A stretch of DNA of 64,000 nucleotides from Limnomonas spitsbergensis (taxonomy: Eukaryota; Chlorophyta; Chlorophyceae; Chlamydomonadales): NCBI GenBank assembly GCA_037349105.1, contig JAYJMM010000041.1, positions 9,112,501 through 9,176,500 on the forward strand. Reading direction: 5' to 3'. The position numbers and the translations under genes are program-made. The notes beneath the pieces are model-generated. The model made no database searches and was not told the DNA's origin. It saw only the letters and a program-made list of their open reading frames with translations. Every line of letters begins with the position of its first letter. The stretch's first letter is position 1. This document shows, piece after piece, positions 14,820 to 64,000 of this stretch.

Positions 14820-14946
14820 CACACATGGTTGCACCTCACACACCTGCACGGTCATGTGCTGCTGGCATTGCACACAGCCACCTCCCTCCCACACCTGCAT
14901 GGCCCTAAACTGCTGGCCCTGCATGCATCCACTTCCCTCCCGCACC
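14820..14946 (-). repeat. tandem copies of the PTOX exon 9 donor
   Basis: The exon 9 end GCCATGCAG|GTGCGGGAGGG is followed by two further copies of about 58 bp, GCCATGCAG|GTGTGGGAGGG and ACCGTGCAG|GTGTGTGAGG. Each keeps a donor consensus. Confidence 0.7.
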
Positions 14947-15000
14947 TGCATGGCGCGCATGGTCGCCACATGCTCCGCCGGCTACCGGGCTGCCGCTCAG

Positions 15001-15402
15001 TCTGGAACTCATCAAACAAGTACCTGTGGGTTTGTAGGGTTCAGGGTTCAGGTTACAGTTGGATCTTGTACCTGCGGAGTTGACAAGTTGAGGGTTCAGG
15101 TAACGGTGTGGAACTCAAGAATGTACCCATGTACCTGTAGGGTTGTAGGGGTTAAGGGTTCAGGTAACAGTTTAAAAATTCACCAAACAGTACCTGTGGA
15201 TTTGTAGGGTTTAGGGTTAGGTAGCAGATCGGAATTTATCAAACAAGTACCGGTGGGAGTGTAGGGTTTAGGGTTCAGGTAACAGTTTGAAACATATCAA
15301 ACACGTACCAGTGGGGTTGTAGGGTTAAGGGTTCAGGTTACCGTATGAAACCTTCCAAACAAATACCAGAGAAATTGTAGGGTTTAGGGATCAGGTACTC
15401 TG
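15001..15402 (-). repeat. ~60-bp array of the PTOX exon 9 acceptor with TTTAGGG-like motifs
   Basis: Seven units. On the minus strand each unit has the telomere-like AACCCTAAACCCTACA, then CCACAG|GTACTTGTTTGA, then a variably preserved copy of the first 26 bases of exon 9 (encoding YLFDEFQT). Only the unit nearest the exon is intact. The others have decayed in the exonic half, while the AACCCTAAACCC half stays conserved. Confidence 0.85.
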
Positions 15403-17745
15403 TTTATGTCTTGTCGAACTTGTGTCTGTGAGTGAGGGGGGGCATCGGGGAAGATGTGATGTCAGGCTGACCAGGTTTTATCCATCATGACCCTCATACC
15501 CCTTTGGTGTCCTTGCGTCCATCATGGCTGCATCCATGCCATGCCTTCGCCGATTAGCATCAAAAGGCTGAATTGCATGACCTACGACCAAGCACAAAAC
15601 TGCAAACACACACAACCACCGGTTTATCCTCCATGACTGCAAGATATCCCTTTACTTGTAGCCTGATGAATCATTCTCCACAATGGCAAAAACCTAAACG
15701 AACAAGCCCCCTTGTAATGATTAGATGTCATTGGCTTCGTCTTAAATCCATCTTCAATCGGGGCATCCAGCATCCACATGCTCCATCTGCATCCCTCTCT
15801 CACCCAGCCTCCTATCCCATGACTCACATGTCTTCCGCCTCATAATAGATCCGAGCCACACGAGGAGGTGGCAGCTTCTTGAGAATGTCCTTGTTCTCAT
15901 CCACAAACTGCAAATTTGGGGAATGATGCTGCAGTTGAGCTTAAGGACATGTCACACGAGGGAGGCCTTACTGGCAAACAAAGGAAGCATTGGGATGCAC
16001 ACCCGCAAAATACGCATCGGGACATGTCAGTGGCCTCCAGAATTGGAGCATGCACGTGGTCATGGGAGTTTTTCAGTGCTGCTGCCAACACCAACGTTCT
16101 TGCTGTACTGCGCAGTCTAGGTAAGCAAGCTATCAACAGGATGTAAGGCACAGACGACACTCAGAAGAAGATGCATGGCTAGCGCAAGACAGCATGACAC
16201 ACGCATGGAGGCGAAAGGTCATGAGGATTGAGGCCTGGTATGAGGCCAATAGCAGACTGTAACGTTCCTAAACCTACACAATATCTGAGACTACTGATGT
16301 ACACATTAGCGGTACGTCATGGCCTGTGCGAGGCTTCATGAGGAGAACCCTCTGGTGGCACAGACAGTATAGAGCGAGGTCGGAGCTCTTTACACAAGAC
16401 AACACATAAATATATTAATATTAGCACTGAGAGTGTTATACAGACAGTCGTCGACCGGCAGCTGAGGCAGCAGGTAATGCTGCACAGTTACAGCAGGACC
16501 CCGCCAATGCGCAACCGCAGGCCAGGACATGGCTGAAATATAGTAATATATCATAACAGGCATTACAAATATCAGTGGTGGCACTTTGTGCAAGACTCAG
16601 CTAATCAGCACTACTAGGCAGTATTCTGGTAAAATACTTCAAGGACTGCAGGGAGGTAAGAGGCCTTTGCCCCTCAGCCTTTCATACCGAAGGGCGCACA
16701 CGTGAAGCAGGCAGGGCGCGCGGGCGTGCCAGGGAGCATGCAGCATTTTGTTCTCTTCTAGACTTGAAAGACGACCCTGAAAGACAGCATGCATTTGCTT
16801 CTCTTCTTTATACAAGGGCGTACCTGACCGTATGTGTCCACAGCGTGCGCCTCTATCAGCTCTGAGAAGTTGTACACCGAAGTTGGGTTGCGTACGGACA
16901 AAGCATGGGAGGGGGGGGGGCAGTTTGCACAGTCCTTGTTAGTGAGTCAATGCATCCACCCATTCCAGCGCTGGATATCGTTTAGGCAAGGGCTATGCAT
17001 GGTAACAGGAAAGACAGAGGCAGGTGGTGTGGGCTTGGCCACATGCACCAAGGTGCACTCTATTGGTGTGTCATCGCGAGGCATGTCCTGAAGACAGAAT
17101 GCCACCAGCTGATTGCTCTAAATGAAACATGCAAGTGCAAGACCCAAAGGTCGCCCTCTTGTCGTCCCCTCAGCAGCTTTTAACCTCCTGCCTCCTCGTG
17201 AAGGCCCCAATAGGAATCCGATGCCTGTCTTGTTGGTCAATCAAATTCAGCATTACCTGACCATCCTTGCCACCCCAGCCTTATAGCACCTCACGCACTA
17301 GAACTCAGAGGGGCAAGCTGACCATCCCTATCCAACCTTTCAGCCCTATCCAGCCCCCTGCCACACATGCACATAATGATCGCAGGTCACTAATTTCAGT
17401 GTGATATATCTGTCATTTCACTTCTTGTCGCCCCCTCCCACTTCTGCGCACAGTAATGATTTAATTTATCACATATCACTGATATCTTCCTGGGTGGCCT
17501 TGCCCCCCCTCACGACCCCAACACACCTGATTTACCACATATCACTGTATCAGTTCTATCTTCAAGACTTCAAGGATGACCTTGCCCCCCTCCTGTCCTC
17601 ACACACACCTGATAACCCACATCATGGATAGTGCGATGAGGTAGACGAGAGCCGAGTGATGCGCAATGAACCTGTCACTCCACTTTTGGTCACCCCCAAG
17701 GGTCTCCATGATCATCAGGTGGTGCGCCTCATTCCACTCCTCAGC

Positions 17746-18110
17746 AAAGTGAACCTGGTGGAAACAGGGAGGATGAAGCACGCTCTCAGACAAGTGGTGC
17801 GCCTCATTCCACTCCTCAGCAAAGTGAACCTGGGGGAAACAGGGAGGATGAAACACACTCTCTGACAAGCGGTGCGCCTCATTCCACTCCTCAGCAAAGT
17901 GAACCTGGGGGAAACAGGGAGGATGAAGCACGCTCTCAGACAGGGAGGATGAAGCACGATCTCAGACAGGGAGGATGAAGCACGCTCTCTGACAGGGAGG
18001 ATGAAGCACGCTCTCAGACAGGGAGGATGAAGCACGATCTCAGACAGGGAGGATGAAGCACGCTCTCAGACAGGGAGGATAAAGCACGATCTCTAACAAG
18101 GACAAAATAG
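17746..18110 (-). repeat. 75-bp x3 acceptor array and 27-bp array in PTOX intron 5
   Basis: Three near-identical 75-bp units hold the polypyrimidine tract, a CCAG acceptor and the first 13 codons of exon 6 ([13 protein letters not shown]). The possible exon starts are 17904, 17829 and 17754. Since 75 bases are 25 codons with no stop, any acceptor gives an open frame. Further upstream (17930-18100) a 27-bp unit (AGACAGGGAGGATGAAGCAC-) is repeated about six times. Confidence 0.9.
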
Positions 18111-19739
18111 GAGTCTGGTGATATGCCGTGCCTCATACATGGATGGGCGAAAGACAGCTCCTGAACCATTGCGGGTGTGTGCAATGCTTTCATCAAATTA
18201 TTGTACGCACCTTCCTGGCTACCAAGCTGCGCCGCCACCAGCCCAAGGTCTCGTACAAGTGCAGCAAGTTGATGTAGCTGAACATGGATGACAGGGGCGG
18301 GGAGCAGGAACAGAGTGCACGGTTGAGAGGGTTTATGTGGTAGTGCATCAAACAGGGTGGGACAGAGGGAATGAGGATAATGAAAGAGGAAGAGGAGGAT
18401 AAGGTGAACAGAAAGTGAGGGTGCGGCAGAAAGGAGGAGGAAAGATAATGTGGGTGTGGCGAGGGGGCGTGGCAGAGGTGCGCGCAAGAGGAGGAGGTAA
18501 AAGAGGGACGCGCGGCACAGGAATGACACAAAGGCTCCTATATAGAAAGAACCGTGCCACATTGTTTGGTTGGGACAATCATAACCATGACCATAAAGTC
18601 TGGGGACAATTGCACCTTCATTTGTGGTATATGTTGAGAGGGGAGGTGGTGGGGGATGGGGGAGAGGTGTGCACTCAAGAATTCATGACGCCAAAGTTTG
18701 TTAAAGCACCTTCATAGAAGATGGGTTGTGATGAGGCGGATCCCCAGGGAGGTGACTTGAGGTGGGATATGAGGAGAGTGTGTATGTGGTTAGGTGGGGC
18801 ATGAGGTAACGGTACGAGAAGGGTTTTTATTCAGGGTTCGAGGTAAGGGTGAGAGGCAGCATGGGGTGGGGCATGTCACCTGAAGTACGGCATGCGTGCA
18901 ACCATCTCCAGCAGCCAAATCCGCTGGATAGGCCTGCCGTCAAATATGACGTCGAGGAACTAGCAGAGCATATAGTAGGGCACCTGGGCATGCCAACAGG
19001 GCGGGGAGCGCATATGCTAGCATGAGCGGTGGCACCGCATTGCACAGAGATGCAGAAAAAAAACAGTGGCAAAGAAAGGAATTTGGCATGCATTGATAGC
19101 TAATTGACACATTTGTGCACCACCCTCGATTTCCTGCAAAGGCATTCCACGAAGATTTGTCGGGAATATCATCACCGGGCGAAGAATGCGTCTGTTGTGT
19201 ATACAACTGGTGGTGTATGGAAACAAAAATGTGTGTGTGCCTGTTCTGTCGCCACGGATTAAGTGCACGAGACCATGTCAGATGTAAAAGGCAGTCTAGA
19301 GACAGGCAGGCTAGGGGAAGGCGGCCGGACATCACTGATCTATGGATAGCCATAAGGCATTATAACTTAAGAAATCAAGAGACAACAGCACAGCATACCC
19401 CCCAGCCCCTTGGCCCCTCAGCCCCACGGCTCCACAGCCTGTCAAGCACCGACCCACCTTGATGACCCAGGGAGATTTCACCGGCTCCCTCAACCCCTCC
19501 CTGTCCCATATGGCCTCCGTCGTTGCTGAGCGTTAGCTTGTCCAGCAGCGCCCGATGTGCCACCTGTGTGTGGTGTTTACTTCTTGTGAGTCAGCTTCAT
19601 TTCAGCTGAATTGTAGCTGCATCCAACTCGCCCAGCCATGCCAATTGTGTCTGTAGGTCGGTCAAGGTTTGACCCTGATCCTGCCTTTGGCAGCCGTGGT
19701 GCAGCTTGGTATGAATAAAGCTTGGTATGAATAAAGAGT

Positions 19740-20110
19740 ATCCAAGTCTTGCTCTTGGAAGCTGGTGTGCCCACAGAGCTGCTCAGAGATGCCAGCAGGT
19801 CCAAGAGGCTAGGGTAGCCATCATCTCACGACCATCATGCACAAAAGTCAAAGCTACATAACTAATACTCGCTCTCAGGGGGCGGTGAGCCCGGAGAGCT
19901 TCTCAGAGGTGCCTGGAGTATGTTTTTGCTATTTTTTCTTATTTGCCAGTACCTGGCCCAGTGGGTAGCGTCTTCTAAAAAAGGAAACCTCCTGGGATGC
20001 TGATGGCAGCCAGCTGCGCAAAGCGCTCACAGATGCAAATGTCACTATTACCTGTGTTTTGGTCTTGGGGGCCGGAGCACCCACTGAGCTCCTGAGAGGC
20101 GCAGGCAGGC
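19740..20110 (-). repeat. decayed copies of the PTOX exon 2 donor end
   Basis: The exon 2 end (RSSVGAPAPKTKTQ|GTAATA, near 20052-20110) has diverged copies at about 19865-19915 and 19740-19805. The latter still reads SSVGTPASKSKTW. They lie downstream in the intron. Confidence 0.65.
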
Positions 20111-20199
20111 CCGGGAAGCCAATGGCCACCAGCAGCGCACGGCCCTCCCGAATGAAGTTCTCAAAGCCCATCTCGAAGAGGCCTCCGGGTACCTGAGAT

Positions 20200-20690
20200 C
20201 AGGAGGGAGAGGAGACCAGAAGGAGGCACGACCGTGATACAGTATTGGTCCAATGGGACGTAAGAAGTTTTTCAGGCCCACGTCAAAAGGTACCTCTGGG
20301 ACATGAGGGAGAAGGGGCAGTGCAGAGGGCCGGCCGTGATTGGTATCATGGAGTGATTACATCCTCAGTGGCGTGCCTGGGTATCTAGCGCACAGCCTCT
20401 GAGAATAGATGCCTCTGGGCAAGGTAGCACATCACAGCACAAGTTGAGCCAGATTTTACCACCTAGGTCGGCTAGGTAGCATGAGACAGCACGATACAGT
20501 AAAGGTCGAGCTAAATTGTGCTACCAAGCCTCTGGGGACCTGTCAATAGGGGGAGAGAGCAGGAAAGAGAGATGACCCCCATTACACTTCAGTCTCATGG
20601 GACGACGACAGGGGGAGCGAGGGCAAGAGGAAATGCCTCTGGGGCCTGGTCTTGTGGGCGGGGGACAGGAAAGAGAGACGCTGTCATCAT
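20200..20690 (-). repeat. decayed copies of the PTOX exon 2 acceptor
   Basis: Exon 2 starts CAG|GTACCCGGAGGCCTC. A copy about 95 bp upstream reads GAG|GTACCTTTTGACGTGGGC, then GAAAAACTTCTTACG, which corresponds to FENFIR. Two more diverged units lie at about 20500-20690. Confidence 0.6.
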
Positions 20691-21369
20691 CGCCAGTCAC
20701 AATACCTGCCTTTCAAAGCAGATGGCTGTTGAAAATGATACATTCCTCCTAATGCATGGAGAAATAATATCTTTCCACCAATGAGGCAATTTCTTCTCCC
20801 CTTACCGTGTCACAGACAGGCTTTCGCCCCCCACGAAGTAAGGGCTGTGGCGTTGTGCAGGTTTAAGGGTCAACAAGAACCTACCCCCATGGCCTTGCTG
20901 TAATCATACGGCTCTCCGCTGTACTGCCTGATGTACCCAAAGTTGTCCAGATCCCCCTCTGATGCAATGTCGTTGACGGTCGTCGAGGCCTCCGCCACCA
21001 TGGTGCTGCTGGTTCCGCTGCTGGGGTATGATGCAGAAGATGATGCTGCACTGGGCAGGTTCCTGCCCCTGCTTCTGCCCCTGCTGCTGCTGCTGCTGCC
21101 CTCCCCGCCCTGCCTGGCGGAGCTGACAGCCATGCTGATGTCACGTTGGCTGCAGGGCCACGTGCAAGGTGTCAGCCAGGGTTGTGCTGGGGCCAGGGCT
21201 GGAAATGTTAGGGTTCCGTGGCCCATGACCCAGGAGGAGCTGGAGTCTGAGGCGTGGAGGGTAGGGATGAAGCGCGGGCTGGCGCGTCGCACTTTGGGGG
21301 TCAAATGGCACCGGGTCGGACACTCGGACATGATGTCAGGGATTGCATCTTGACTGGCTCGAGGCACCG

Positions 21370-23230
21370 GCTGCTGCAGATGACAGGAGGAGTCTAGTCG
21401 GTCTGCAAATGGGCGCCGCGAGAATAAGGTTTGCGCATGGGCGAACTGAAGGAGCCTGAAATCGCAATTGGTGGAGTTACTGACTCACCCGCGCGGTATC
21501 GAGTATCGACAGCCCTGCAGGCTCGCACAGGGCGGGTCATATGTATCGTAAAAACGTGGACAGGCCCAGCAGTGCAAGGAGGTTAGGTCATGACTTGATA
21601 TCAGTTAGACATTGACTGTGCTCCAACCTGATTGCTAGCAGTGCACTAATACTGGTAGGCACCAACTGTCCTTTGAGATAATCGAACGCAAACACAATGG
21701 GCTTTGGGAGTCCACTTGACAGAATCACCAACTCCAATAAAGTTATGTTCTGAGATAACTTGGCCATGCTGAGGGGCCTGCCTCTAATTTTTTGAGGATG
21801 CTTTATTGTCATGCTGGTCTCCATAGCTATAGTATTACCTGATGTAAAGCCTAGGGTTGTGGCTCTGAAACCACCAGTGCTGTTTTTTTCCATCCTCTCG
21901 CAAAACCAGTCCTCGGCAGATCTGGCTGGCTCAGCTTAGATAAGAAGGGGGGCCTGAATAAAGGACATGAAAATCAAGATGTGTGAATAAAGAGTGGATA
22001 CCTGACTTGAGGCATTCTGGAACTCAGTGGCAGTGATATGGGAGCTTGCATGGCTGAGGGGCTGCATGGGGCAAGGGGCATGGCTTCCTGGCAAGCCACC
22101 TTTGCCCCAAATTTGCAGCCTCAGGAGTGGGGAATGGTGCAGAAATTGGGTGGGCAGTCTTAATGAGCTACTCTCAGGCTCTCTGAATCACCAGACATCA
22201 TAGCAATCAGACAGGTTTGGAGTGAATTCCAATCCATCAAAGACAGCCCTGATGTGGGCCACATGGAAGGCCATATCGGCATGTTGGATTGGCCAAATGA
22301 CCCAGGGATGGTGGCAATGCCTCCGTCCATGCCCCACCTACACCCACTGAAGGTTCTACCTCAATCGGTTTTTGGCCACTTTTCAGGCTCAGCCGCCGCA
22401 AGTTTGGTACCCAATGGGCCAGTTTTAGGCATCCAACTGCCATTCGGATTCAAATGATACCCCAACAGGCCTCAATAAACCGTGTATGGCAAGCTGATTA
22501 CAGCAATTGACGATGAAGCAACACATCGAGTCAGTTCCGAGAGAGATTACTTCAAATGACAGTTGGTACTGCTAGTGTGAACCAGGTTGCTGGGACGGCG
22601 GGTCAAACCTCAGTACCCCTAAAACGGGTCGATACATCTGACCCGCCCTGCACGTTATCAGCACGCACGGGGAGACTGACTGGGACCCGAGTGCACTGGA
22701 GTCAGATTTGCTTCTTTGTGATGTAGTCGACCCTAGATAGCATGCACACGTGTGCAGTTGTAGGTTCTGTGTTGCCTACTCTACTATCCCCGTCACTTGG
22801 CTAGTGTGGGAATACACGGAAAGGCCGTCAGGTCAAAAAAGCTGCTGACGTTAGCAGCTAGTCCAGAGGATACCATGAAAGAGAGCGAGCAGCAGGTCGA
22901 ACATTACATGACTGCAAGGAATGCTGAAAATGCTAGAGTCTGTCGATTTGTTGGCATTTCATGCAATATAGAGGCCCCCGGGTGAAACTGTCCAACTGAG
23001 TGGCTCAGCTGCGCGGTCTTCTTTCCAGCCCAGCATGGCATGCGGATCTCCGTTTCGGGGTCCACAGCTGGTCCGCAGTTCCAACTTCCACGAGTACGAA
23101 TGGTGCAGATAGCTTCATGGCTACTTATATCATGATGTACCAACCCTTCCACACATCAGGGCGTACCGTAGATTTCCTTTGCCTTCCCTCATAATTAACG
23201 TTGTTTGGGGTTGAGGGATCAATAAACATA
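21370..23230. other. no supported gene
   Basis: A 101-codon minus ORF at 21588-21893 and a plus ORF at 22254-22457 have protein-like composition but no recognisable motif or splice context. I leave them as unsupported. Confidence 0.3.
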
Positions 23231-27935: not shown

Positions 27936-30900
27936 CAGACTGGCAGGGAGGAGAGACATCCAGCTGCAGCAAGGGGGGCAATGCAGCTGGGAGGGCGAGG
28001 GACAGGCAAAATACAACAGCAGCAGCAGCAGTTTGTGCACCATGGGCAGCAGCAACAGCATGGGCAACATGGGCAGCAGCAGCAGCAGCAGCAGCAGCCT
28101 GGGCAGCGCAGTCGGTGGCTGCGCGAAGGGGGGCTTTACAACCGAGTTGGCATAGAGACGGTTCCTCCTGCAGGATCTGGGGTAGCAGCCAGGGGGCCTG
28201 CCTCTTCCAGTCTTGACCTAGCGGTGGCTGCTGGGCTGGGCGGGCGGGGCAGGCACGCCGCACCTCCAGTACCAGTGCGCCTGCCAGCGAGGCGCCCGTT
28301 CATGTTTGACGCGAGGCAGAGCTCCAGCGGGAAAGTCCTGCTGATCCGCCCGCTGGCCCGGCCCATGTTCAACGCAAGGTGAGGACCGGGCAAGAAGGCA
28401 TGTGGAGATGAGCCTCACAATAGCCCCAGAGATGCATGTATGTGCCCCGCCTCGCGGCACCGGAGTCTCGTGCTGATGAGAAGCTGACGAGAAGCTGATG
28501 AGGTTTATTACCTTGATGACGTATATCGCCTTGATAAAGTATATGCTGTATATCAGTATATCAGCACCGGACCTTCATAGAGATGTGAGCACCTCGCCTG
28601 TCCCCCCTCTCCCTCAGGTTCGGCGAGCGACCCAGGAGGGGCGTGCGCATGGCCGATGCAGAGGGTGTCTCAGTTCCATGGGAGCTGCGCCGGCGGGCGG
28701 TGCACCTGCCCCCACAGACGGATGTCCTGGTCCAGAGCTGGCTGTCGCTGCCACCGCCGCAAGGCTCCTCGACCGAGGGGCCGGGGCGCGGGAGCAGAGG
28801 CGGCAGGGGGCATCTGCTTGACGGGGAGGAGGGAAGGGGATGCAAATCCGGCGACAATGCGGATTTGTTCCGCCTTTTGCCGATCGGATGCTGGCAGGAG
28901 GATCCAGATCTGGATCTGGATGAGCTTGGTGACTGGGTTCCGGAGTGGGCCTGCCGCCTGTCCCGGCAACAGATGATGGACACCGAGGCCGCCGAGGCTT
29001 GGCGAGGCCTACGGGCCTGGGGAGAGGGGGAGGGCAGAGAGGAGGATCATTCGAGGTGGGGGATGCAGGCCGGCCAAGGTAGCAGAAAGGCTAGCAGTGG
29101 GGATGATGCAGTAAGCGATTCGAGGTGGGGGATGCAGGCCGGCCAAAGTGACAGAGGGGCTAGCAGTGGGGGTGATGCAGTACGTGTCCTTTTGTGTGGA
29201 TCTTGCCCACCCTGCCAAGTGATAGGTACCAAAGGCCTCAGCTGCTGGCCCTCCTGTGTATTGGCTTGTAGAGCCCGTAAAACATCAAACGGCCCTGTGA
29301 GAAAAGTAGCCAAGGCCAAGGTCAAGGTTACTCTCACATTTCCCGATCCTAGGTCATGGCAGTGAGGGTGCATTTGTTTTGGCTCCACCAGCAAAAGGGA
29401 TGAGACTCGGGTCTGCAGATCCTGAGCCGTTGACTGGCGCCTGAGCTGCTGACCGAACCCTCAGCCCCTTTACTCGTCTTCCCCTGTCTCTGTGTGACTG
29501 CACCGCAACAGCCGCGCCTATCGTCCCCTCATCTTCAAGGCTGAATGACCCCTCAGCCTTCCCACCACTTTCCCCACTCTCTGCACCAGCTATGGGGGCT
29601 GAATGACCCCTTCGCCCCTTGCCTCTTCTCTCATTGTCTCTGTACGACTGTACCGCAACAGCCGCTCCTACCATTTCCTCAGCTTCAACGCTGAAAAAAT
29701 CCTCCAGCCTTCTTTAACCCTTTCCCCATTCTCTGCACCAGCTATGGGTGCTGACTGACCCCTTTGCCCCTTGCCTCTTCTCTTTTTGTCTCTGCACAAC
29801 TGTACCGCAACAGCCGCTCCTACCGTTTCTTCAGCTTCAACGCTGAATGACCCCTTCAGCCCATTTCAGCCCTTTCCCCACTTTCTGCTCCGCAGCAGCT
29901 GCTCCCGCCACCTCTGCATCTTCAAGACTGATTGTCCCTCACCACCCCTCTCCCCACTCTCTGTACCGCCCTCTGAGTCGCAGCCCACCCCGCCATCTTC
30001 GCATCTTTAAGGCCGGTGGCTACATGTTGGCGGACATGGTGGCCATGCTGCGCTCCTCGGGCCTGTCTCATGCGCTGTCCGTGACGAGGCTGATGCATGA
30101 GGCTGACTGTGTGGTAGCCAAGTCGCAATGGGGCAGTGGCAGGCACGTCAACCTGGTGCAGGTGCGCAGAGTGCTGGGGCAGTGGCAGGCACGTCAACCT
30201 GGTGCAGGTGCGCAGAGTGCTGGGGCAGTGGCAGGCACGTCAACCTGGTGCAGGTGCGCAGAGTGCTGGGGCAGTGGCAGGCACGTCAACCTGGTGCAGG
30301 TGCGCTGGGTGCTGGGGCAGTGGCAGGCACGTCAACCTGGTGCAGGTGCGCAGAGTGCTGGGGCAGTGGCAGGCACGTCAACCTGGTGCAGGTGCGCAGA
30401 GTGCTGGGGCAGTGGCAGGCACGTCAACCTGGTGCAGGTGCGCAGAGTGCTGGGGCAGTGGCAGGCACGTCAACCTGGTGCAGGTGCGCTGAGTGCTGGG
30501 GCAGTGGCAGGCACGTCAACCTGGTGCAGGTGCGCAGAGTGCTGGGGCAGTGGCAGGCACGTCAACCTGGTGCAGGTGCGCAGAGTGCTGGGGCAGTGGC
30601 AGGCACGTCAACCTGGTGCAGGTGCGCTGAGTGCTGGGGCAGTGGCAGGCACGTCAACCTGGTGCAGGTGCGCTGAGTGCTGGGGCAGTGGCAGGCACGT
30701 CAACCTGGTGCAGGTGCGCAGAGTGCTGGGGCAGTGGCAGGCACGTCAACCTGGTGCAGGTGCGCAGAGTGCTGGGGCAGTGGCAGGCACGTCAACCTGG
30801 TGCAGGTGCGCTGGGTGCTGGGGCAGTGGCAGGCACGTCAACCTGGTGCAGGTGCGCAGAGTGCTGGGGCAGTGGCAGGCACGTCAACCTGGTGCAGGTG

Positions 30901-32746
30901 CGCTGAGTGCTGGGGCAGTGGCAGGCACGTCAACCTGGTGCAGGTGCGCAGAGTGCTGGGGCAGTGGCAGGCACGTCAACCTGGTGCAGGTGCGCTGAGT
31001 GCTGGGGCAGTGGCAGGCACGTCAACCTGGTGCAGGTGCGCAGAGTGCTGGGGCAGTGGCAGGCACGTCAACCTGGTGCAGGTGCGCAGAGTGCTGGGGC
31101 AGTGGCAGGCACGTCAACCTGGTGCAGGTGCGCTGAGTGCTGGGGCAGTGGCAGGCACGTCAACCTGGTGCAGGTGCGCTGAGTGCTGGGGCAGTGGCAG
31201 GCACGTCAACCTGGTGCAGGTGCGCAGAGTGCTGGGGCAGTGGCAGGCACGTCAACCTGGTGCAGGTGCGCAGAGTGCTGGGGCAGTGGCAGGCACGTCA
31301 ACCTGGTGCAGGTGCGCAGAGTGCTGGGGCAGTGGCAGGCACGTCAACCTGGTGCAGGTGCGCTGAGTGCTGGGGCAGTGGCAGGCACGTCAACCTGGTG
31401 CAGGTGCGCAGAGTGCTGGGGCAGTGGCAGGCACGTCAACCTGGTGCAGGTGCGCTGAGTGCTGGGGCAGTGGCAGGCACGTCAACCTGGTGCAGGTGCG
31501 CAGAGTGCTGGGGCAGTGGCAGGCACGTCAACCTGGTGCAGGTGCGCAGAGTGCTGGGGCAGTGGCAGGCACGTCAACCTGGTGCAGGTGCGCAGAGTGC
31601 TGGGGCAGTGGCAGGCACGTCAACCTGGTGCAGGTGCGCAGAGTGCTGGGGCAGTGGCAGGCACGTCAACCTGGTGCAGGTGCGCAGAGTGCTGGGGCAG
31701 TGGCCGGCACGTCAACCTGGTGCAGGTGCGCAGAGAGCAGGAGGAAGATATGGGCGTATAGTGGTGGGTTCTCAAGGGCCCACGGTGTATATGGAGGCTG
31801 GTGTGGGAGGCTGGGGCTGCCTGGGCTGGCCTAGGCTGGTTGGGTATACTCGAGATAAAAACTGTAGACCGCGGTGTCTTGTTACTCTCTTGCCTGCCTC
31901 TACTGACACCTTCATGCCTGATTATCTGTTTTTTCTCCAGCATCGAGCGGCAGCTCAGAAATACGGCATTCCTTTCCTCGTGGTTGAGTCTCTGAGGTGA
32001 GACTTGTCAGCAGACTGTTCTCATGAGGTCGTGTGTCAAGATATTGAAGAGAACCGTGACACTACCACTCACACCTTTGACAGCGTACACCAACTGATTG
32101 TCTCATACATGAGACTGCCCTCCTGCCTGGTCCCCTGCAATAAGTGTTTCTGGGGGGTGCGCTAACGCTGCCACAACATTATTGACCTCTTTGCGCTTAA
32201 CGATGCTCTCTGTGCTGCTTGTATCCTCCCCTGTCTGGGAGCTGGCAACCCCGCTGCTGCCCGCAATACTCCTGATGCTCTGACCACCCTCACGCTCCAC
32301 TTGCCCCTGCCTGATGTCTTGGCCTTCCCCACTCCCTGCTTGCCCCTGCTTGATGTCTTGGCCTCCCGCACTCCCTGCTTGCCCCTGCTTGATGTCTTGG
32401 CCTCCCCCACTCCCTGCTTGCCCCTGCCAGGGCACATGAGCTGGTGCTCAAGCTGAAGCCATTGCTGTTGCAGCACAACCTGCTCAGCCACTCACCGACA
32501 GGATGGGAGGGCCTAGACCGACACACATCCCAGCCTGGGCAGGACGGTCTTGTGGCCTCCATATCTGCCCCCCTAGGATGCAAGGTGGGGTACATGCTTG
32601 CCTTACAAATTCTTATTTGTGTGCTCTTCGACAGGCCCATGTTCAGCCACCACTGGGACAATGGGGACCCGCAGTCGACTGATCTACAGCCGGTGGACGA
32701 AGCTGCAAGGCTTGTCTCGCAAGCCCTGATCGCCTATGGGATGTGA
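27590..32746 (+). CDS. long multi-exon protein; C-terminus possibly Ycf45/SPD1-like
   Basis: Supported exons are about 27600-28379 (Gln/Asn-rich, ends RPLARPMFNA), 28621-29112 or -29181, about 30012-30161, 31941-31996 and 32635-32746 (ends LIAYGM-stop). All junctions keep phase. Exon 1 repeats RQANxAEQGxS about six times, then has polyQ runs. The last three exons join as MLADMVAMLRSSGLSHAL, VTRLMHEADCVVAKSQW, then RAAAQKYGIPFLVVESLR. The pattern 'EADcvvakS...RaAaqkyGIPflVv' recalls the C-terminal R3H-associated domain of Ycf45/SPD1 proteins, but no P-loop was found, so this is tentative. More exons may lie at 26800-27160. Two donors of exon 2 (GCA|GTAAGC and GCA|GTACGT) are 69 bp apart and in frame. 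Confidence 0.45.
29040..29190 (+). repeat. 69-bp duplication at an exon end
   Basis: Two units of ATTCGAGGTGGGGGATGCAG-GCCGGCCAA, each ending in a usable in-phase donor (GCA|GTAAGC and GCA|GTACGT). They add 23 codons if the distal donor is used. Confidence 0.75.
29490..30011 (+). repeat. ~150-bp copies of an acceptor region
   Basis: Three to four diverged units of CTGTACCGCAACAGCCGC-CCTAC--TTCCTCAGCTTCAACGCTGA lie upstream of the acceptor CATCTTTAAG|GCCGGTGGC. The first unit has CATCTTCAAG|GCTGAATG, parallel to the real junction. Confidence 0.65.
30130..31735 (+). repeat. 46-bp minisatellite, about 35 units, on a splice donor
   Basis: The unit comprises GTGCTGGGGCAGTGGCAGGC and ACGTCAACCTGGTGCAG|GTGCGC(A/T)G. 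The first unit overlaps the end of the exon coding GSGRHVNLVQ, and each unit repeats those coding bases plus the CAG|GTGCGC donor. Variants are almost confined to CGCAGAG, CGCTGAG and CGCTGGG. Near-identity over 1.6 kb implies recent expansion or homogenisation. Overlapping plus-strand ORFs across it are artefacts of the period. Confidence 0.97.
32280..32435. repeat. 39-bp minisatellite in the last intron
   Basis: About three and a half units of CCCCTGC(T)TGATGTCTTGGCC plus TCCC-CACTCCCTGCTTG. Confidence 0.85.
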
Positions 32747-48044: not shown

Positions 48045-48196
48045 GACAAAACAACTGCTGCTGTCAAGCAAGTAACTACACCGTATTCAGACGGTGGTTG
48101 ATCGTTGCTAGTTGATCGCAGAAGTACTCACTTCAAGTACTCGAAACTGCGCAAGCAATAATTGAAAGACAAAAGTTAATTTATCAGTGCAATTAC

Positions 48197-52425: not shown

Positions 52426-55400
52426 ATGCACGTTTCGATGCCCATGGCGAGGTCTAAGCGCCCATGTGAACATCGCAGGCAGCAATGGGACATCATGATA
52501 TCGTACCGCACCGATGACATGGGCGACTGTGCTGACGGTATTGTGATAGGCTTGTTCAAGGCTTTGTCGGACGAAGGCTGGTCCGTATTCTTGGACGTGG
52601 AAGTCCTGCCGGTGCGTTTGATGGGAAAACAGCAAGAATATGAGGCTCTGATGCGCATCTTATTGATTGGCATCTGCCATAAACATGATCCGCCCACGTC
52701 CTTATGAGCAGCTTCATGCCGTTCATGGAATGCATCTTTCCTTATAATGAAATCTTGAGCTGCCTGACCCCAAATGCAGGTTGAGGTTGACTGGGTACAA
52801 GTGTCGCGAGATGCCCTCGAGCACTGCACTGTGTTCATTGCCGTCTGCTCCGACCGTTACAGTGCTTCCAAGTTCAAGCATGCGGAGTTCTCCCTGGCTC
52901 ACATGATGGGCAAGGTTGGTACTGCTACTTCTACCAGCTTCTCGAATTAATGATTACCGGAAGACAGATCACAGATAATGCAGTATACTGATCTCAATTT
53001 CATTTGACATGAGCTCTCCTTCAGTCCTCAAACATCAACTTGAATAGATCTCAGCGCTCCTTTTTGTTTTTAAGCTACGTAGTCGAGTTACGCCATGTCC
53101 TAGTTGACATAGCTCTTGCGGCTTTGCATGTGTATCCCAGTGTTTCATATTGGCTCGCGCTTTATATTACTCTTGATATGAGCACTGTTGTCGGGTGTGA
53201 CAGCCACAATTTAGCTATATTAATGCGAGTACCTTGCCTTGACAGCGCCCTTGAATGTCTGCTGGACTCCAGCTTTTCAAAGCGGCGTCTTGTTTATTCC
53301 CTTTGCCCTTGGAGCACAGTTTATTTTCGGTTTACGGCATCAGCTACAATTCAGCTACATCGCAACCAGGGGTGCATGGTACAGCAAGCCATGCTGCTAG
53401 TTCCTCTGATCACCGGTATAGACCGGTCAAGTGTTGGTTCCCATCAGCCCAGTGGTGGCTGCCCAGCGCCCTCTTGAAGGCGGCCGGGTGTCCTGTAATA
53501 TGCAAACTGTTTCACATCAGCTCGCACTTTGTTTCACAGGTCATAATCCCCGTTTTCTACAGCGGCGTGTATCCTCCTCCCCATTTAGAGCCGTTGATGT
53601 CATCCCTGGAGTTCATCCCTAAGAGCGGAGCATGCCAAGGCGAACACCCATGGTTTGATGAGGTGAGCGTGCCAGTAGGTCTCCTATGGTGCCACGAAAT
53701 TGCGGATGCAACCATGCTATCGTAACTAGCCGTGTGCCAGCTTCATAGTGTGGCAGGTGTGTCATGACCGATTTGAAAATGCAGCTTTCCCAGCCACTGA
53801 TGTGCCAGCGTGATGGTGTAGTTAAGATAGATGCTAATCATAATGGTAGTGCAAACCAAGTTTGTTTGTTCTCCAGAATTTTCCCGGAAGGCGAAGAGCT
53901 CCAGGAAAAAGGAAGGGTTGTGTGCCTTTTTAAATGCTCGGATTTTTGGGGATACGAACCGCAAACGTCTAGTGACCGTCGCACTTCTTCCCCTCCCAAA
54001 GCCACGCTCGTCTGGTTTGAAATGCCGTTGGTACCTACTTACTCAGGGCTGCCAACAGTTTCTCCTTGCATCAGTTTCAAGCTGCCCTGCTGAGCCCAGC
54101 CATGCCCAATGTTACATCTGTGGCTGTCGGTAGTCAGTGAGCACTATCAAGCACTGATATTCTATTCAGGTCAGGTCAGTAGGCCGCTTGCTCTTGCACC
54201 CCAGGATGCTAACCCTGGCCTTGCTGCCAAAGAGGCGACTAGGGCCGAGTCCTGCTGGTCCTCCTAGTCCACCTGTTTCCCCTCCACCTGCTCTTTCTGC
54301 TGACAAAGAGAATTTCCTGGGCCTGCCAGGATGAGACGTTCATGCTGGGCACTGAGATGGGCAAGGGTTTACAAGGCTAGATCATGGTGACAGTGCATTT
54401 ATGGTAGCCGATGCTGACTGGTTTCTGTAATTATGTTTGACAGGCTTCGATGTTTGCTCAGCTCAGTCTTGGGCAGCTTTACTGAAACGAATTCTGACTG
54501 ACACTGCGGCAAGGGGAAACAAACTCAAAATACTGAAAAACTGCAGGGCTCTCATAATATTATCAGTGGCTCAAGGTTGCCTTATGGCACCTCTAGGTTA
54601 CTGGTAATAAGGTTGCTTATCAAGTCATGAAGTCCTGCAAGGATAATTTTATTTGTTCCATCGCCCACACACCGCTCGATTCTTCCTGATTCGGCCTAGC
54701 GTTATTATTGCGCACCCCCTACCGGCATTTTCCCTGATCCACGCTACCTATTGCGCATCCCTTTGAGACGCGATTTTAGAGGTTACACATTAATAATGTA
54801 CTGTATTGTCCCGATTGCTTAGGTATCGGTTATTGTGAATTTATTATTCCAATCATCTTGATTTGTTTGTTAGCCTACCCTAGCTTGGGCAAATGAGCTA
54901 GCCACCAATAAAGTTGCCAAAGGTGTTTCGTATGGCGGACGTTAGTTTAAATGCTTGTTGGACGACTTGCAAACTTTCTCCTGTAAAATTTACTACCTAT
55001 GAATCTAATCCCTGCCTTCCTTTTCTTCCCCCCCTGCAAAGATGATAGTGGAGTTGAGGACCTTGATGAAAAACCTGAACCTTCAGCCCTCCGTTGGAAA
55101 ATACCTGCCAGACAGAAACTCCCTTTGGCCATCAAGAAATAAGGTCAGAAAGTCTCGAGTGCCAGGGATGAGACCTAAGCAAGCGTGGCCCTGCCGGTGG
55201 TGATGCAGGGGTCACTCATGATTGTTTTGACCGCAATTAAAAGAATGCTGTTGCGCCTCTTTTTGCACTGTAGCATATGTTAACATTGCGTGCACCTTCG
55301 CATTGCCCTTTGTGCCAAAACAGGACGCGAACCTGCCCATGTAAACTAGGTAACCATGACGCCAAGCCCGTAACCCTGAACCCAATCAAACCCGAACCCC

Positions 55401-56601
55401 GAACCCTGCCCATGTGAAACAGATGGTGGTGAAACCGGACTCTATCATCAACGCGGTTGTGGCCAAGTTGTTCTCGGCCATGTGGTCAGAGCAAGGGCGT
55501 GCGGCGGGGATATTGTCACATCTTACAGCCAATGCTGCGAACAAGGCCAAGATCATGGCTGCTCCTGGTATCATTACCCGGTTGGTCATCTTGATGCGCT
55601 CGAGGTCTGACGTGGTGCAAGAGCGGGCTGCAGGTTTGGTAAGTGACCTTGCTGCCGATGAACAGGCGAATATGGTCAAGATCGCAGCTGCATCTGGTGC
55701 CTTACACCAGCTGGTCGTCTTGCTGAGCTCAAGATCAGAGGCGGTGCAACATCGGGCAACGGGCGCGCTGCTGAGCCTTGCAACGTGCGAAGAGGCCAGT
55801 GTCAAGATTGCCCGTGTGGAGGGAGCCATCCCCCAGCTGGTTAGGCTGTTGAAATCGAGCTCGATGGAGGTAATGGATCGTGCAGCGGGGGCGTTGTGGA
55901 ACCTTGCTGTCAAGAAGGAGATCGCAGCAGAGATTGCCGATACCAATGGTGCCATCGCCCAACTGGTGGCCTTGCTCAGCTCGAGCTCCGCGTTGGTGCA
56001 GGAGAATGCAGCGGGCGCATTGTGGGTTCTCGCATTTCACGAGGAGAACCAGGTTAAAGTCGCTGCTGCTCCTAGAGCCATCACCCAACTGGTCCACGTG
56101 CTGCGCTCCAGCTTGAGCTCCACAGAAGCGCAGGAATTTGCGTTGGGGGTGCTGTTGTTCCTTACAGAGAGTGAAGAGATCTGTGTCAAGATTGCCTATG
56201 CTCCTGGTGCCATCACCCAGCTGGTTGCCTTGCTCAGTTCGAGCTCAGAGACCCTGCAAGTAAGGGCGTCAGACCTGTTGAGTGACCTGGCAATCAACGA
56301 TAATATGCGAGTCAAGATTGCCTGTGCTCCAGGTGCCCTCACCCAGCTGGTCGCCTTGTTGCGCTCTTACTCGACGGAATTGCAGGGAAATGCAGTATGT
56401 GTGCTAAATGCGCTTGCATGCGTGGAGAACCACGTCAAGCTTGTCTCGACTCCTGGTGCCATTACCCAGCTGAAGAAGTTGGCGAGGTCCAATGTTTTTG
56501 CAGTCAAAGAGGCGGCGCAATGTGCCTTGAGCTTTCTGGATCCTCCTGGCCTGCAATTGTTCCCGGGGCAGTCCAGGGTTTGTGTTGACACATGTCAATG
56601 A
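52426..56601 (+). CDS. TIR domain-ARM repeat fusion protein
   Basis: Supported exons are 52426-52611, 52780-52914, 53540-53662, 55042-55143 and 55423-56601, all phase 0. More may lie in 53663-55041. The N-terminal TIR fold reads WDIMISYRTDD, GLFKALSDEGWSVFLDVEVL, then DALEHCTVFIAVCSDRYSAS, KFKHAEFSLAHMMGK and VIIPVFYSGVYPPPHLEPLM. The Glu in KHAEFSLA falls where NADase TIRs have their catalytic Glu. The C-terminal 390 residues are about eight armadillo repeats of the form APGAITQLVALLSSSSxxxQ. ARM-TIR pairing recalls SARM1 with reversed domain order. The role as an NADase or defence sensor is inference. The ARM exon acceptor has a decayed tandem copy about 70 bases upstream. Confidence 0.75.
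53370..53475 (+). repeat. SINE-like repeat (copy 4), inside a TIR-ARM intron
   Basis: ATGGTACAGCAAGCCATGCT, then a degenerate B-box region, TTCCCATCAGCCCAGTGGTG and GCTGCCCAGC. It lies just upstream of the acceptor of the third TIR exon. Confidence 0.4.
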
Positions 56602-58856: not shown

Positions 58857-61800
58857 TCACGTGGCTTGTGTTGCCGTTATACCCTGGTTGAAGTGCTCGT
58901 GCACGTACTGAGACAGCTTGCCCCACACCTCATCTATACTGAACAGGTCATGGCCCAGGTCACGCATCTGCCGTAGCACGCTGGGGACCGACCCCGCTGT
59001 GACGGGGCATGCACAGCCCCCACTTGCATCCCGCCACTCCAGCAGCAGCATGATGGCCTTGTAGTGGATGAGCGCGCCAAAAACCACCGCAATCTGAAAA
59101 ATGGAAAATGACAGGGGCAGTTCAAAACAGTCAGCGCCGCATCCAGCTCGGAGTGAAAGAACAGCCCTTCAGGACTCAGCTGTGCAGTGTGCCAAATTTT
59201 GAAGTATAGAGAGACAATTGATTGACCATCTATCGAGAAAAAGAACAGCAAAACGGACATCATGGCCTCATGCTGCCTTGCAGACTCGGCTGGCACTGCG
59301 ATAGCCCGGTCAATTTATGTGTGATCAAACCATTCATATGCTTGCGGATGACAGGCGCAGGCCACACAAACCACACCCACCCATCAGGGCTCACGCATCC
59401 GTCCTTATTTCAGTATACTTCCCTTACCCCGTTTTCCCCCATCGCATGCGAGATACCTCGAGATATCATACTTTTATCGGTTTAAACTTGCCTCTGCATG
59501 CTAGCGCCAGCACTTACATGGAACAGTTGATGGCTGTGCAGCCACAGGTCAAATCTGCCTGGGAACCAGCGCTCTGGGACCCTGTTGGCAAAGATGACGG
59601 CACCTGACTGCTCGAGGAACCAGGGGGGGGGGGCAAGGGGGGCAAGGGTAAGGAAGGTGCATGGAGAGTGTGAAGGGTCAGGGTCAGGGTCAGGGGGACG
59701 CATCGGACGGGGGGAGGGAGGGCATAAGGGACAAGGGAGAGCATAAGGGAAACAAGGGAGAGTGGAGATACAAGTATAATGCAGCGATGTGCACAGAGGG
59801 GGGAGGGGCAAGGGGAGATGGAAGGGCAGTAAGAGGCTGAAGGCTCAACAGATAAAACCATGGACACCCTGTAAAAGACAGCCCGGAAGTGACATCTGAC
59901 GTGCCTGATGGGGCCTGATTCGGCGCAGCGATCCAGCTCAATGTAGACAGGAGCAGGTCTGAATGCCCACTTTGGTTGGCAGGACGCGCTGTGCAGGAAT
60001 GTCCATTGCCAACAGGCCATGCAGAGGCTGCAGCCTCTATAGAAAACTCGAAAAACTGTAGAAAAGTCCCATTGACCTTGCGCAGGTAAGACCTACACTT
60101 GGACCTGTTCTCTCGCCCCTCCCAGATCTCCAGTGCCCCCCTGACACCTGACCCTGGTCCACCAGCAGACTTATAATAAATAAAGAAACGATACGCCCTG
60201 AGGCTGCAGACTTACAATATACGTGGCACCCATGACGAGCTCCACCGCCAGTGCAGTCTGGACCTGCGGAGCACGAATCACAGTTTCACACCATACCCGC
60301 CTTCGTATTCACACAGGACTTCATGCAGGATTTCAAACCACACGGGCATCAGGGTTGTCCTCAAGCACCTCCCCTGCAGATGACCGGCCATGCATCACTC
60401 ATGCGGCATCACTCATGCCCGTGCGACTGATCCCCATCTGCCGTAAAAGCCCCCTGTCATCCTTCATGTCTACAGTGCATTGGTGCCGCATGCCGTATCC
60501 GCCCCCCTTCATATTTCATTTCTTCAATGCATTGGCGCCACATGCCGTACGCGCCCGCCTTCACATTTCATGTTTCAACCTGGTCCCTCTCCTGTGCCTG
60601 CAGGTGTCATTCAGGATGACACCTGCAGGCACAGGTGTAGATGCCTTGGGCACAACAAATACGCAAGTGACTGCTGTGCACACAACACTGGATTCCCTTC
60701 ATCATTGAGGCACCCTCTGAAAGCGAGATACTCACCTGCGGCACTGTCCACAGCCGCAGCCGAGGCCCTGTCCAGAGCCCCACCTGTGGCACGTCACTGT
60801 TGAGGAACCACTGATGCACTATGGGCACCAAGCCGTACAAGCCAAGCACGATGAACATGCCTGCGCGGAAAGGGCGCAGCTCCGGCGCCTGGAACCGGTC
60901 CATGAGCGTCACCGCCACCGCCATCAGGCCTGGTGTGTGTGCGGGGGGTGGGGTGAGAAACACGGCTTGACAGTGGTACTTGGGGTTGGGATGGGCATTG
61001 AAAGCAGTCCAACCACGTCAAAGCGGTCGCAGTGGTGTTGGGGGGTGATGCTGGCACAGAAACTGGTCTTGGAGAGTCAAGGCAATGGCCATCAGGCCTG
61101 AGGGTGTGGGCACAGACAAAGGGCAGTGGTGCTTGGGGTCGGGATGTGCACTGGAAATGGCCCAACAGCGTCAAGGCGTCCGCCATCAGGCCGAATAGGG
61201 GGGAGGGGGGGGTATGAAAAGCATACAGACTGCCTGAGGAATTTGGATTTGGGGTGGGCACAGAATTAGCAATGAGGGAGAGAGTGAGAGCCCTTTCCCG
61301 TGGCTGTGACTCTGACTAGTACAAGCACATAGTGTACAAGACAGAGGGATTGAGAGCCCTGACCCATAATCCATGGCGGTGGTTCTGAGCAATCCAGTGG
61401 TGAGAGCTTGTTAGTTGTGCTGTGAGAGAGAGAGGGAATGAGGACACTCACCCATGGCTGTTATGCTGATGAGGTAGAAGGCTAGGAAGCCCGGCCGGCA
61501 CATGAACAGGTAGTAGACAGTCGGGTAGAAGGAGCACACGATGAGGATGCAGATACCTGCGTAATCCACGCGCCAAACGTATTGCGTGATGTGCTTCTGC
61601 GGGGGGGGGGGCGAGAGGAAGGGATCAGAGGGGCAAGGGAGGACAGGAGTAGTAGAGGGAGCAGATGATGCGAATGCAGATGCCAGTTCCAAGCGCTACA
61701 CTTCCTGTCAAGTGCGCCTCTGAGGGGGGTGTCATGAGAGGGAGAGATCAAAGGAGAAGGGGAGTGGAAGGAAGAGGGGAGGAAATAAGCATACAATGAG

Positions 61801-64000
61801 GATGCAGGTGTCTGTACAATCCACACACTTTGTGTGAAGTGTGATGTTCCTTTGCCGCTGGTGGTCATCAGAGGCAGGGCTCGGAGAGAAGGGGTGGGAA
61901 TGGGATGGGAAGATGCTTCAGCATGCAGTAGGCTGTAGTCAGAGAAAGGGATCAGAAGGACAATGGAGGGGAAGGGGATGCACAGGCAGGCACTATGAAT
62001 GCTCCTAGAGGCTGATTACATGGGCTGAGTGTTCAGCCAGGGTTTGGGCGGGGGATGTGACGATCAAGGTCGTCACAACCTGGATTAAAGACAATTCTCG
62101 GGATTATGAATTTATGATAGAGCAAGCCTGAACAGCCAACCCTAGGATTGGGCTCCATCACTGTCCCAACCTCTATTGTTTCAATGCACTTGATGCTTCC
62201 ATTCACGAATATTTCAGACTGCTGTAGAGGGGTCCTGGTGCAGGACGTCCAGTTGTTTGAATGCCCTTCAGGCTTTGCCGTTCAGCAACATCCCGACCTG
62301 CTGACAAGGGGCCTGGTGCAGTATACCCAGTTGCTCTCGTCATGTCCCCAACCAGCACGTTAGGCAGTCCCACAGAGGTGGTCTTATGCATACGAAAATA
62401 TGAACTCCATACCTGACAGCACCCCAGAAGCATTCTTTACAGCATTCCGTATAAATGTATCATGCTTAGGCTAGCTTGCTCAGCCCCAGCCTCCTGTTCC
62501 CTCCCAAGCTCTGTGTCTGCTCCCTGCCCACACACCTGACAGCACCCCAGAGGAATTGTACACAGCCATCAGGATCATGCTGATACTAGCTTGCTCAGCC
62601 CTAGCCCCGTGTTCCCTCCCAAGCTCTGTGTCTGATCCCTGCCCACACACCTGACAGCACCCCAGAGGAATTGTACACAGCCATCAGGATCATGCTGAAA
62701 CTAGCTTGCTCAGCCCTAGCCCCGTGTTCCCTCCCAAGCTCTGTGTCTGATCCCTGCCCACACACCTGACAGCACCCCAGAGGAATTGTACACAGCCATC
62801 AGGATCATGCTGAAACTAGCTTGCTCAGCCCTAGCCCCGTGTTCCCTCCCAAGCTCTGTGTCTGATCCCTGCCCACACACCTGACAGCACCCCAGAGGAA
62901 TTGTACACAGCCATCAGGATCATGCTGAAACTAGCTTGCTCAGCCCTAGCCCCGTGTTCCCTCCCTCGCCCTGTCTTCAACCCCGTCCACACACCTGACA
63001 GCACCCCAGCAGGTGGCAGATGCTGCTGAATAGCAGGCATGTCATGGCACCCGTCATGAACACATATGCCGGCCACCTGGAGCAGGAGGGAGTCAAGAGA
63101 CAGGGTGCCAGGACAGTTAAACACAGCCGGGAACACAGGACGCAGACACCCCATTGTCTGTCTTTCTGTTTTACACCCTTACCCCTCAACTTTCATATAC
63201 ATTTTTCTAGGCCACTGAAGCCTTCCAGACAGCACCTTATGCCCCCACCACCCCCAGCCCCGGCCTGAACCCCTTCCTCACACTAGACTGTTCACCACAG
63301 CAGTCTCCCCAATAGCGCCTGTTGTCCCTTCCCCCACGCCTTAACCCCCCCCCCTCTGCCTGTTCTCCCCTCCTCACACCTGGCTGTTGGCCATTGCAGT
63401 CTCCCCGACAATGCCTCATAGGCCTCCGCATGGCCGGGCATCCCCATGTGCACCAAGGTGCGAACCCGCGCCTGGATGCTGTACACGCGGTCCGACAGGC
63501 CCTCCTGCAGACTGTGCACTCGCCCTGACAAACCCTCCTGAACACCAAGGGGAGAATACGGGGGCAAGCAGCCATTCGTGTTCAGGGTGTTAAGGACTGG
63601 TATTTCATATTCCCCCCCTGACAGGATCAAAATGTAAGGCTCTCCCTTCAACTGTTCTCCCTCGATGTGTCAGTCCAGCAAGCAAAGCAGCCCGCAGGAA
63701 CAAGGTGCGCTCTGGCGCAACAAGTCTTCATCTTAGTGCGCAATAGACCACCTTCGGCAGGCAATTCACCTTTGGCAGTGGGCTCCCGACTTTCAACGAC
63801 TCAACGCCTGTGGCGAGGCAGGGTTTGCTGCACCACAGCACCACGCCCCTCGCCACGGCCATTGATTTCCTCCCCAAAAGATGCAATTGTTTATAAATGC
63901 CGAAGGTGAGAGAAAGGGTGGAAGGTGCTGCGCGAGAACCTGGGAGTCTGTTTAGGCTGCTGCCCCATTTAAGCTGCTACCTGTAGGTTGTGCATCTGCC
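58857..64000 (-). CDS. PAQR/heptahelical receptor family membrane protein (5'-partial)
   Basis: Exons, 5' to 3': 63981-64000 (partial), 63380-63537, 62995-63076, 61452-61596, 60784-60929, 60216-60263, 59518-59607 and 58857-59093. All phases agree. PAQR (adiponectin receptor/hemolysin III/plant HHP) signatures are present. FMTGAMTCLLFSSICHLLGC has the S-x3-H motif, and VWRVDYAGICILIVCSFYP has the Asp. RPFRAGMFIVLGLYGLVPIV and RVPERWFPGRFDLWLHSHQL follow, with the HSHQLFH His pair. These polar residues form the zinc site of the family. The cytosolic loop has two related EGLSxRV-SxQ segments. The C-terminal tail (about 60 residues after GALIHYKAIML) is soluble. Long introns carry tandem junction copies. 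Confidence 0.88.
60930..61200 (-). repeat. tandem copies of a PAQR acceptor
   Basis: The acceptor-exon start CAG|GCCTGATGGCGGTGGC (60929) recurs upstream as GGCCTGATGGCCATTGCC (near 61097) and GGCCTGATGGCGGACGCC (near 61190). Each is followed by degenerate bases matching ACGCTCATGGACCGGTTCCAG. Confidence 0.75.
61290..61452 (-). repeat. tandem copies of a PAQR donor
   Basis: The donor region ACAGCCATGG|GTGAGTGTCC at 61452 has diverged copies near 61375 (ACCGCCATGGATTATGGGTC) and 61305 (ACAGCCACGGGAAAGGGCTC). Each is followed by CTC-rich bases. Confidence 0.65.
61640..61870 (-). repeat. decayed copies of a PAQR acceptor-exon start
   Basis: Two diverged copies of exon 61452-61596. One keeps ACCTGCATCCTCATTGTATG (near 61800) and the other ATCTGCATTCGCATCATCTG (near 61670), against ATCTGCATCCTCATCGTGTG in the exon. 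Confidence 0.6.
62405..62995 (-). repeat. 115-bp array of a PAQR donor junction
   Basis: Donor junctions GGTGCTGTCAG|GTGTGTGG occur at 62995 (real exon end) and at 62881, 62766, 62651, 62536 and 62413. Spacing is 114, 115, 115, 115 and 123. The middle four units are nearly identical. Each contains TTTCAG, then 44 bases ending in the copied exon tail, then the donor, so each is a potential pseudo-exon with both splice sites. Confidence 0.9.
63273..63325 (-). repeat. copy of the first full PAQR exon donor
   Basis: About 98 bases downstream of the donor at 63380, a copy keeps GGGGAGACTGC, TGG, GAACAG and AGTGTGAGGA. It parallels GGGGAGACTGCAATGGCCAA-CAGCCAG|GTGTGAGGA. Confidence 0.7.

Follow-up and report, generated by a model that had tools for sequence, protein, structure and literature searches.

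In many unrelated genes of the snow alga Limnomonas spitsbergensis, segments spanning exon-intron boundaries are repeated, and the extra copies lie on the intron side, whether the boundary is a donor or an acceptor. These copies are best read, with a probability of about 0.65, as tandem duplications of the mirage type, in which duplication itself is ordinary, copies are tolerated on the intron side and their persistence is anchored by the exon. Replication slippage, unequal exchange or break repair would generate duplications both within introns and over their edges. Where one crosses a donor or acceptor, the protein would be unchanged while the outer splice site is used, and the duplication would be tolerated; most duplications within exons would be removed by selection. 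On some evidence the exon half, held constant by selection, may be the master from which copies are restored, either by gene conversion or by a further duplication. Intron lengthening would be a side effect of the duplications.

Boundary copies in the window

The window is the whole stretch of 64,000 nucleotides that was analysed (G000:C41:9112501-9176500). The PTOX and PAQR gene models within it were rebuilt exon by exon from protein homology (Table 1). Nine PTOX exons were recognised, and the gene may extend below position 14946; PAQR has six recognised exons. An earlier note on this DNA had claimed that intron repeats copy the adjacent boundary in at least ten places. Eight of its 12 examples were recovered, three of them at only 68-72% identity, and one was borderline (PAQR donor 61452, 27/40 at offset 154). 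The acceptor copies reported at 20.2-20.7 kb in PTOX were not recovered at the thresholds used, and the other two examples are real repeats at splice sites that homologues do not support.

Table 1. Genes and boundary repeats in the window (positions are those of the window).
Feature	Position	Strand	Evidence
PTOX (plastid terminal oxidase) gene	14946..21133	-	translation, junctions; Pfam AOX E 1.6e-16
51-bp x2.4 array across PTOX exon 9 donor (14946)	14834..14954	-	TRF; 29/40 match, offset 51
58-60 bp array upstream of PTOX exon 9 acceptor (15023), degenerate exon-start copies	15024..15397	-	TRF
75-bp x3 array containing PTOX exon 6 acceptor (17754) and first 39 exon bp	17719..17942	-	TRF
PTOX exon 2 end, copied into downstream intron	19739..20119	-	70% identity
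152-bp x2.7 repeats upstream of putative acceptor	29485..29888	+	TRF
46-bp x34.9 array, unit contains putative donor 30161	30129..31735	+	TRF; 40/40 match
PAQR / hemolysin-III family gene	59518..63543	-	translation; Pfam HlyIII E 7.3e-45
PAQR exon 4 acceptor (60929), degenerate copies	60889..61210	-	offset 262, 72% identity
PAQR exon 3 acceptor (61596), degenerate copies	61565..61969	-	offset 123, 68% identity
115-bp x4.8 array, starts with last 15 bp of PAQR exon 2 and its donor (62995)	62459..63009	-	TRF
PAQR exon 1 donor (63380) copy	63271..63416	-	offset 96, 76% identity, 37 bp exonic

PTOX acceptor 17754 is among the recovered examples, matching at 39/40 at offset 75. Upstream of acceptor 15023, whose exon encodes YLFDEFQTERQPGSRR, the earlier note had counted a 60-bp unit seven times. 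Degenerate copies of the exon start do lie there, two of them matching at 27/40 or better, with a 34/40 match at offset 227. TRF reports a 58-bp unit x4.4 at 15143-15397. At PTOX donor 20052 the copy ends 4 bp short of the donor. The expected acceptor of PTOX exon 7 (window 16824-16890) lacks AG, so that the splice site is unusual or the assembly is at fault here; this acceptor was omitted from the counts.

The two examples without homologue support lie near 30 kb. The donor at 30161 within the 46-bp array is no more than plausible; the exon ending there has no Pfam match, and its sole database relative aligns to another exon. The gene at this position (working label NYN) was retained in the window counts.

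Repeats cover 8/29 window junctions, where points inside the same introns would predict 7.6, and 6/9 repeat families span a junction where 3.1 are expected (P 0.04). Over the genes analysed, boundary-spanning repeats have offsets of 24-330 bp, mostly 80-190 bp. TRF returned 34 rows for the window and masked 12% of it; the masked fraction of five sampled 40-kb blocks ranges from 7 to 96%. One 40-kb block (L013-L016, G000:C41:1200001-1240000) is 96% tandem repeat by TRF. Across 18 genes 1,266 self-matches scored at least 20, compared with 10 after local shuffling; for VIP1 only 8 kb was shuffled, and VIP1 15.3-25.0 kb was left out of the self-match search. Degenerate telomere-like CCCTAAA/CCCTGAA stretches were also seen by eye, often beside intron repeats (L032, L029 and the VIP1 introns in L017-L020).

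Splice junctions of 15 genes outside the window

An independent set was drawn from genes outside the window so that the discovery set was not reused. It contains VIP1 (inositol hexakisphosphate kinase), a PAP/fibrillin gene, a protein kinase, a WLM gene and 11 chaperonin genes (Pfam PF00118); the VIP1 exons were located with tblastn from database homologues. The 15 genes have 96 donors and 98 acceptors, and both ends are known for 83 introns. The junctions are homology-inferred, chosen by continuity of the profile or homologue, reading frame and the presence of GT or GC with AG; paralog conservation supplied some further exons. Four junctions of very short introns and the PF00118 loci C82, C84, C97, C102 and C114 were omitted from the counts. 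The first independent set had 161 junctions, 157 of them scored. It was enlarged from the paralog comparison, and the direction of the results is the same in both. A self-trained gene finder (264 kb) was dropped because it over-predicted introns and reached only 0.12 nats per codon on held-out exons; in a departure from the plan, the main test then used homology-anchored junctions exclusively.

In the point test the 40 bp centred on each junction were compared with every ungapped position up to 1.2 kb away. With at least 26/40 matching, 37/190 junctions have their own copy, compared with 39.1 predicted from random points in the same introns. At 30/40 the numbers are 24/190 and 22.1. Depending on the threshold, junction copies therefore accompany about an eighth to a fifth of the tested splice sites. 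The earlier note had described the copies as always lying on the intron side, and in these 15 genes all 37 copies matching at 26/40 or better do so (37/37). Its further observations, that copies are frequent, occur in unrelated genes and range from near-identical to degenerate, were also borne out.

Coverage falls steeply into the exon. In the first set 21/161 positions are covered at the boundary, 22/161 at 20 bp inside the exon and 1/112 at 60 bp inside, while coverage runs at 10-23% through the intron. This profile has no peak at the boundary and rises mildly 60-120 bp into the intron. The one-sidedness calls for no special process, since selection would purge most copies inside exons.

A sizeable share of the tested splice sites adjoins copies of itself, with GT/AG retained in 22/32 junction copies, and the outer site agrees with protein continuity. 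About two thirds of copies would in this way leave a decoy splice site. Offsets are divisible by three in 11/32 cases, which is the chance level, and the idea that copies are kept for reading frame was rejected on that ground. Introns with a repeat family (51/83) have a median length of 720 bp, and those without (32/83) a median of 325.5 bp.

The point test is close to what chance overlap would give in a minisatellite-rich genome, where junctions are copied at the density of any intron point, and the abundance of junction copies does stem largely from the repeat-rich intron landscape. Strict TRF arrays point the same way: 8/58 span a junction, compared with 7.1 expected, and 9/194 junctions lie inside arrays, fewer than the 23.1 expected from the array cover of introns. 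These array counts give no support to the general excess at splice sites that the earlier note proposed; its suggested genome-wide comparison of TRF units with junctions, carried out in a near version on the 15 genes, is the 8/58 result. By argument rather than by test, equal coverage of junction and interior would nevertheless imply a modest excess of events, since either copy of a pair can cover an interior point but a junction is covered by one only.

Events were counted by grouping ungapped self-matches into families and scoring a family as junction-spanning when its exonic overlap was 8 bp or longer. The expectation assumes uniform placement of the duplicated unit, with the unit taken as the period. 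In the 83 introns 35/74 families span a junction (16 at donors, 19 at acceptors), where 19.7 are expected; allowing for detection bias raises the expectation to 23.0 (P 0.0004). Families that intron sequence by itself reveals come nearer to chance, at 20/56 compared with 12.8, or 15.0 once the detection advantage is included (P 0.05). Taken with the argument from coverage, the excess over all families makes chance overlap a very improbable account.

The excess depends on unit length. Units shorter than 80 bp show no junction preference (7/38, with 5.3 expected), whereas 28/36 families with units of at least 80 bp span a junction, compared with 14.4 expected. In a decay simulation where changes to the exon half fall mainly on one copy, junction pairs have a detection advantage of 1.2-1.35. 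With this simulated bias the expectation for long units rises to 16.6 (P 4e-5), and with an assumed twofold advantage to 19.6 (P 0.001), so that the excess amounts to about 1.4 to 1.9 fold. The 80-bp cut was chosen post hoc, after the period lists had been seen, and the P values for long units are therefore optimistic.

The long-unit excess was recalculated on subsets at the 1.35 advantage. Without VIP1 it is 19/23 compared with 10.8, and with one gene per paralog pair 22/29 compared with 14.2; without VIP1 and both CCT-eta paralogs it is weak (9/11 compared with 5.7, P 0.03). Among long-unit families that can be recognised without exon sequence, 14/19 span a junction (7.6 expected, or 8.7 with the advantage), as do 11/15 of those with at least 88% identity (6.3 expected, or 7.1; P 0.02). 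The corresponding bias-reduced tests in the first, smaller set were weaker, at 9/13 compared with 6.0 (P 0.05) and 7/11 compared with 5.4 (P 0.22).

Formation and persistence of the long units

The mirage-type reading with exon-anchored persistence is supported by the intron-side position of every copy, by the steep fall of coverage into the exon, by the agreement of TRF arrays and short units with expectation and by the greater median length of introns that hold a repeat family. Against it stands the long-unit excess, which survives detection biases of 1.2-1.35 and of 2. Conservation of the exon half is therefore not the full explanation by itself. The excess could be due to faster formation or to longer persistence at junctions. 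Under longer persistence, junction copies of about 100 bp would outlast interior ones and so produce an excess of the size found.

Faster formation is the core of the process suggested in the earlier note. Splice boundaries would be mutational hot spots where R-loops, nicks or lariat-related repair duplicate about 100 bp, and introns would grow from their ends. The junction-spanning families with long units speak for such hot spots, in that the excess persists when VIP1 is removed and when each paralog pair is reduced to one gene, and so does the mild rise in coverage just inside the intron. The preference for splice boundaries that the note had proposed holds for units of at least 80 bp and fails for shorter units and for TRF arrays, and coverage does not peak at the boundary. 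Moreover, the cut at 80 bp was post hoc, the bias-reduced tests of the first set were weak, and longer persistence at exons would yield the same pattern. On balance hot spots seem unlikely. A narrower version sets duplications of about 80-190 bp apart from the short-unit minisatellites found in intron interiors: junctions would be their preferred formation sites, and introns would be built from their ends in a process linked to splicing or transcription. This version is still more doubtful. Exon-anchored persistence is preferred as the cause of the long-unit excess, and targeted formation is its rival. The excess makes the two separable by resequencing of strains.

Three copies have an unusual structure. 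At VIP1 9094, VIP1 37341 and C36 6987 the exonic part is 91-96% identical and intronic homology extends only 1-7 bp. Such exon-only copies are not predicted by plain tandem duplication followed by neutral decay. They would suit templated insertion, in which template-switch or end-joining repair places copies of exon ends together with spacer into introns and no tandem duplication takes place, as each copy ends no more than 7 bp from the splice site and unrelated spacer separates it from the original. Elsewhere the intronic parts match and several units are present (PTOX 75 bp, C106 86 bp, C62 119 bp), and the 104-bp copy at C99 also has a matching intronic part. The CCT-eta paralogs, furthermore, differ in intronic homology at a shared acceptor, which by eye is kept in one and largely lost in the other, making later loss likely. 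Templated insertion is accordingly a highly improbable source of the copies as a class.

Paralogs bear on the persistence of copies under the mirage-type reading. The comparison covered two pairs of chaperonin paralogs with 32 orthologous junctions at a threshold of 28/40. Five of the 32 junctions are duplicated in one paralog only and three in both; a longer comparison detected a weaker copy in the other paralog at two of the five (CCT-eta 4547/4919; 1738/1598). At junction 1738/1598, counting copies of at least 42/66, one paralog has three (offsets 508, 373 and 131) and the other has one (offset 133). Junction copies change after gene duplication.

At one CCT-eta acceptor the 108-bp offset and the outer breakpoint are identical in both paralogs, so this duplication probably predates the paralog split. 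Divergence between the CCT-eta paralogs at fourfold sites is 0.57, and a neutral copy should have drifted far more over that span than these copies have. The intronic copies are 87% or 94% identical to their own exon (8 and 4 differences in 63) and 82.5% identical to each other. The simplest reading is that the copies have been refreshed, whether through conversion or a further round of duplication, although the evidence is thin: diagnostic sites follow the copy's own exon at 2/4 positions in both paralogs for this acceptor, at 2/4 for the second shared junction and at 0/3 for the third.

Known boundary repeats and other features of the window

The growth of introns from duplicated boundaries had been thought undescribed, yet related repeats are already known from the lancelet (PMC3087553). 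Mirages in the amphioxus genes Adh3, BflGb6 and BflGb9, the last two being globins, are minisatellite-like duplications of intron-exon boundaries at either intron end, with units of 10-72 bp in Adh3 and 150-160 bp in the globins (PMC3087553). Many units retain AG/GT and regular splicing is undisturbed; copy number differs among haplotypes, and the units undergo concerted evolution (PMC3087553). The repeats of the alga are of this known kind, with families that span the boundary at both donors and acceptors. They differ from amphioxus mirages in occurring in a green alga and at 24-37/190 junctions over 15 genes, in being set against a measured expectation, and in being known here from the genome sequence alone.

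Two further reports describe neighbouring phenomena. In Chlamydomonas and Volvox introns have the highest tandem-repeat density, with repeats commoner near intron-exon junctions (PMC3887541); that survey concerns repeats within introns, and the sections consulted mention no units reaching over the exon edge. In human segmental-duplication genes boundary minisatellite units vary between recent paralogs (PMC2812944). The human repeats are tied to new introns and alternative splicing (PMC2812944), whereas the copies in the alga lie in existing introns. A limited literature search found no paper on intron-exon boundary minisatellites in an alga, a result that does not by itself establish novelty in algae.

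Intron gain by tandem duplication of AGGT resembles the present case in that the duplicated segment includes splice-site-like sequence. Under that model each end of an intron should look like the exon at its other end. A potato RdRp gene reportedly gained an intron by this route. In the alga the 14 aligned copies resemble the adjacent exon and the intron pre-exists, and AGGT duplication was not adopted as an explanation. The start of the next exon is copied near the donor in the C106 intron, but this copy is linked to the acceptor array. AGGT duplication as a route to intron gain goes back to Rogers 1989 and to Gao and Lynch 2009 (both cited in PMC3087553).

How introns gain length and how decoy splice sites originate are open questions that are easy to study in this genome, which offers natural material for examining splice-site choice and how a duplicated boundary may become a new intron. 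The published genome of L. spitsbergensis comes with full-length transcripts, 43,157 polished isoforms (PMC11228838), which allow a direct test of splice-site use.

The window holds several other features. Open frames that read by eye as histones H3, H4, H2A and H2B lie at 659-1102 (-), 1902-2243 (+), 11013-11456 (-) and 11618-12028 (+), and TRF reports a 22-bp x113 array at 2430-4919, between two histone pairs. Beside PTOX, a 477-bp segment (21524-22000) recurs at 95-96% identity in at least 39 other places in the genome; among the matches listed, many are in tandem with a spacing of about 1.1-2.5 kb. A mobile-element-like open frame of 1151 aa occupies 39824-43279, and a frame of the same length with a similar start is found in block B4 (loci L021-L024). 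The 1151-aa frame is followed at 44481-49045 by an inverted pair, in which frames of 282 and 259 aa at 44481-46219 (+) return almost unchanged at 47307-49045 (-). A 413-aa open frame at 55360-56601 has, by eye, the look of an armadillo-type repeat protein.
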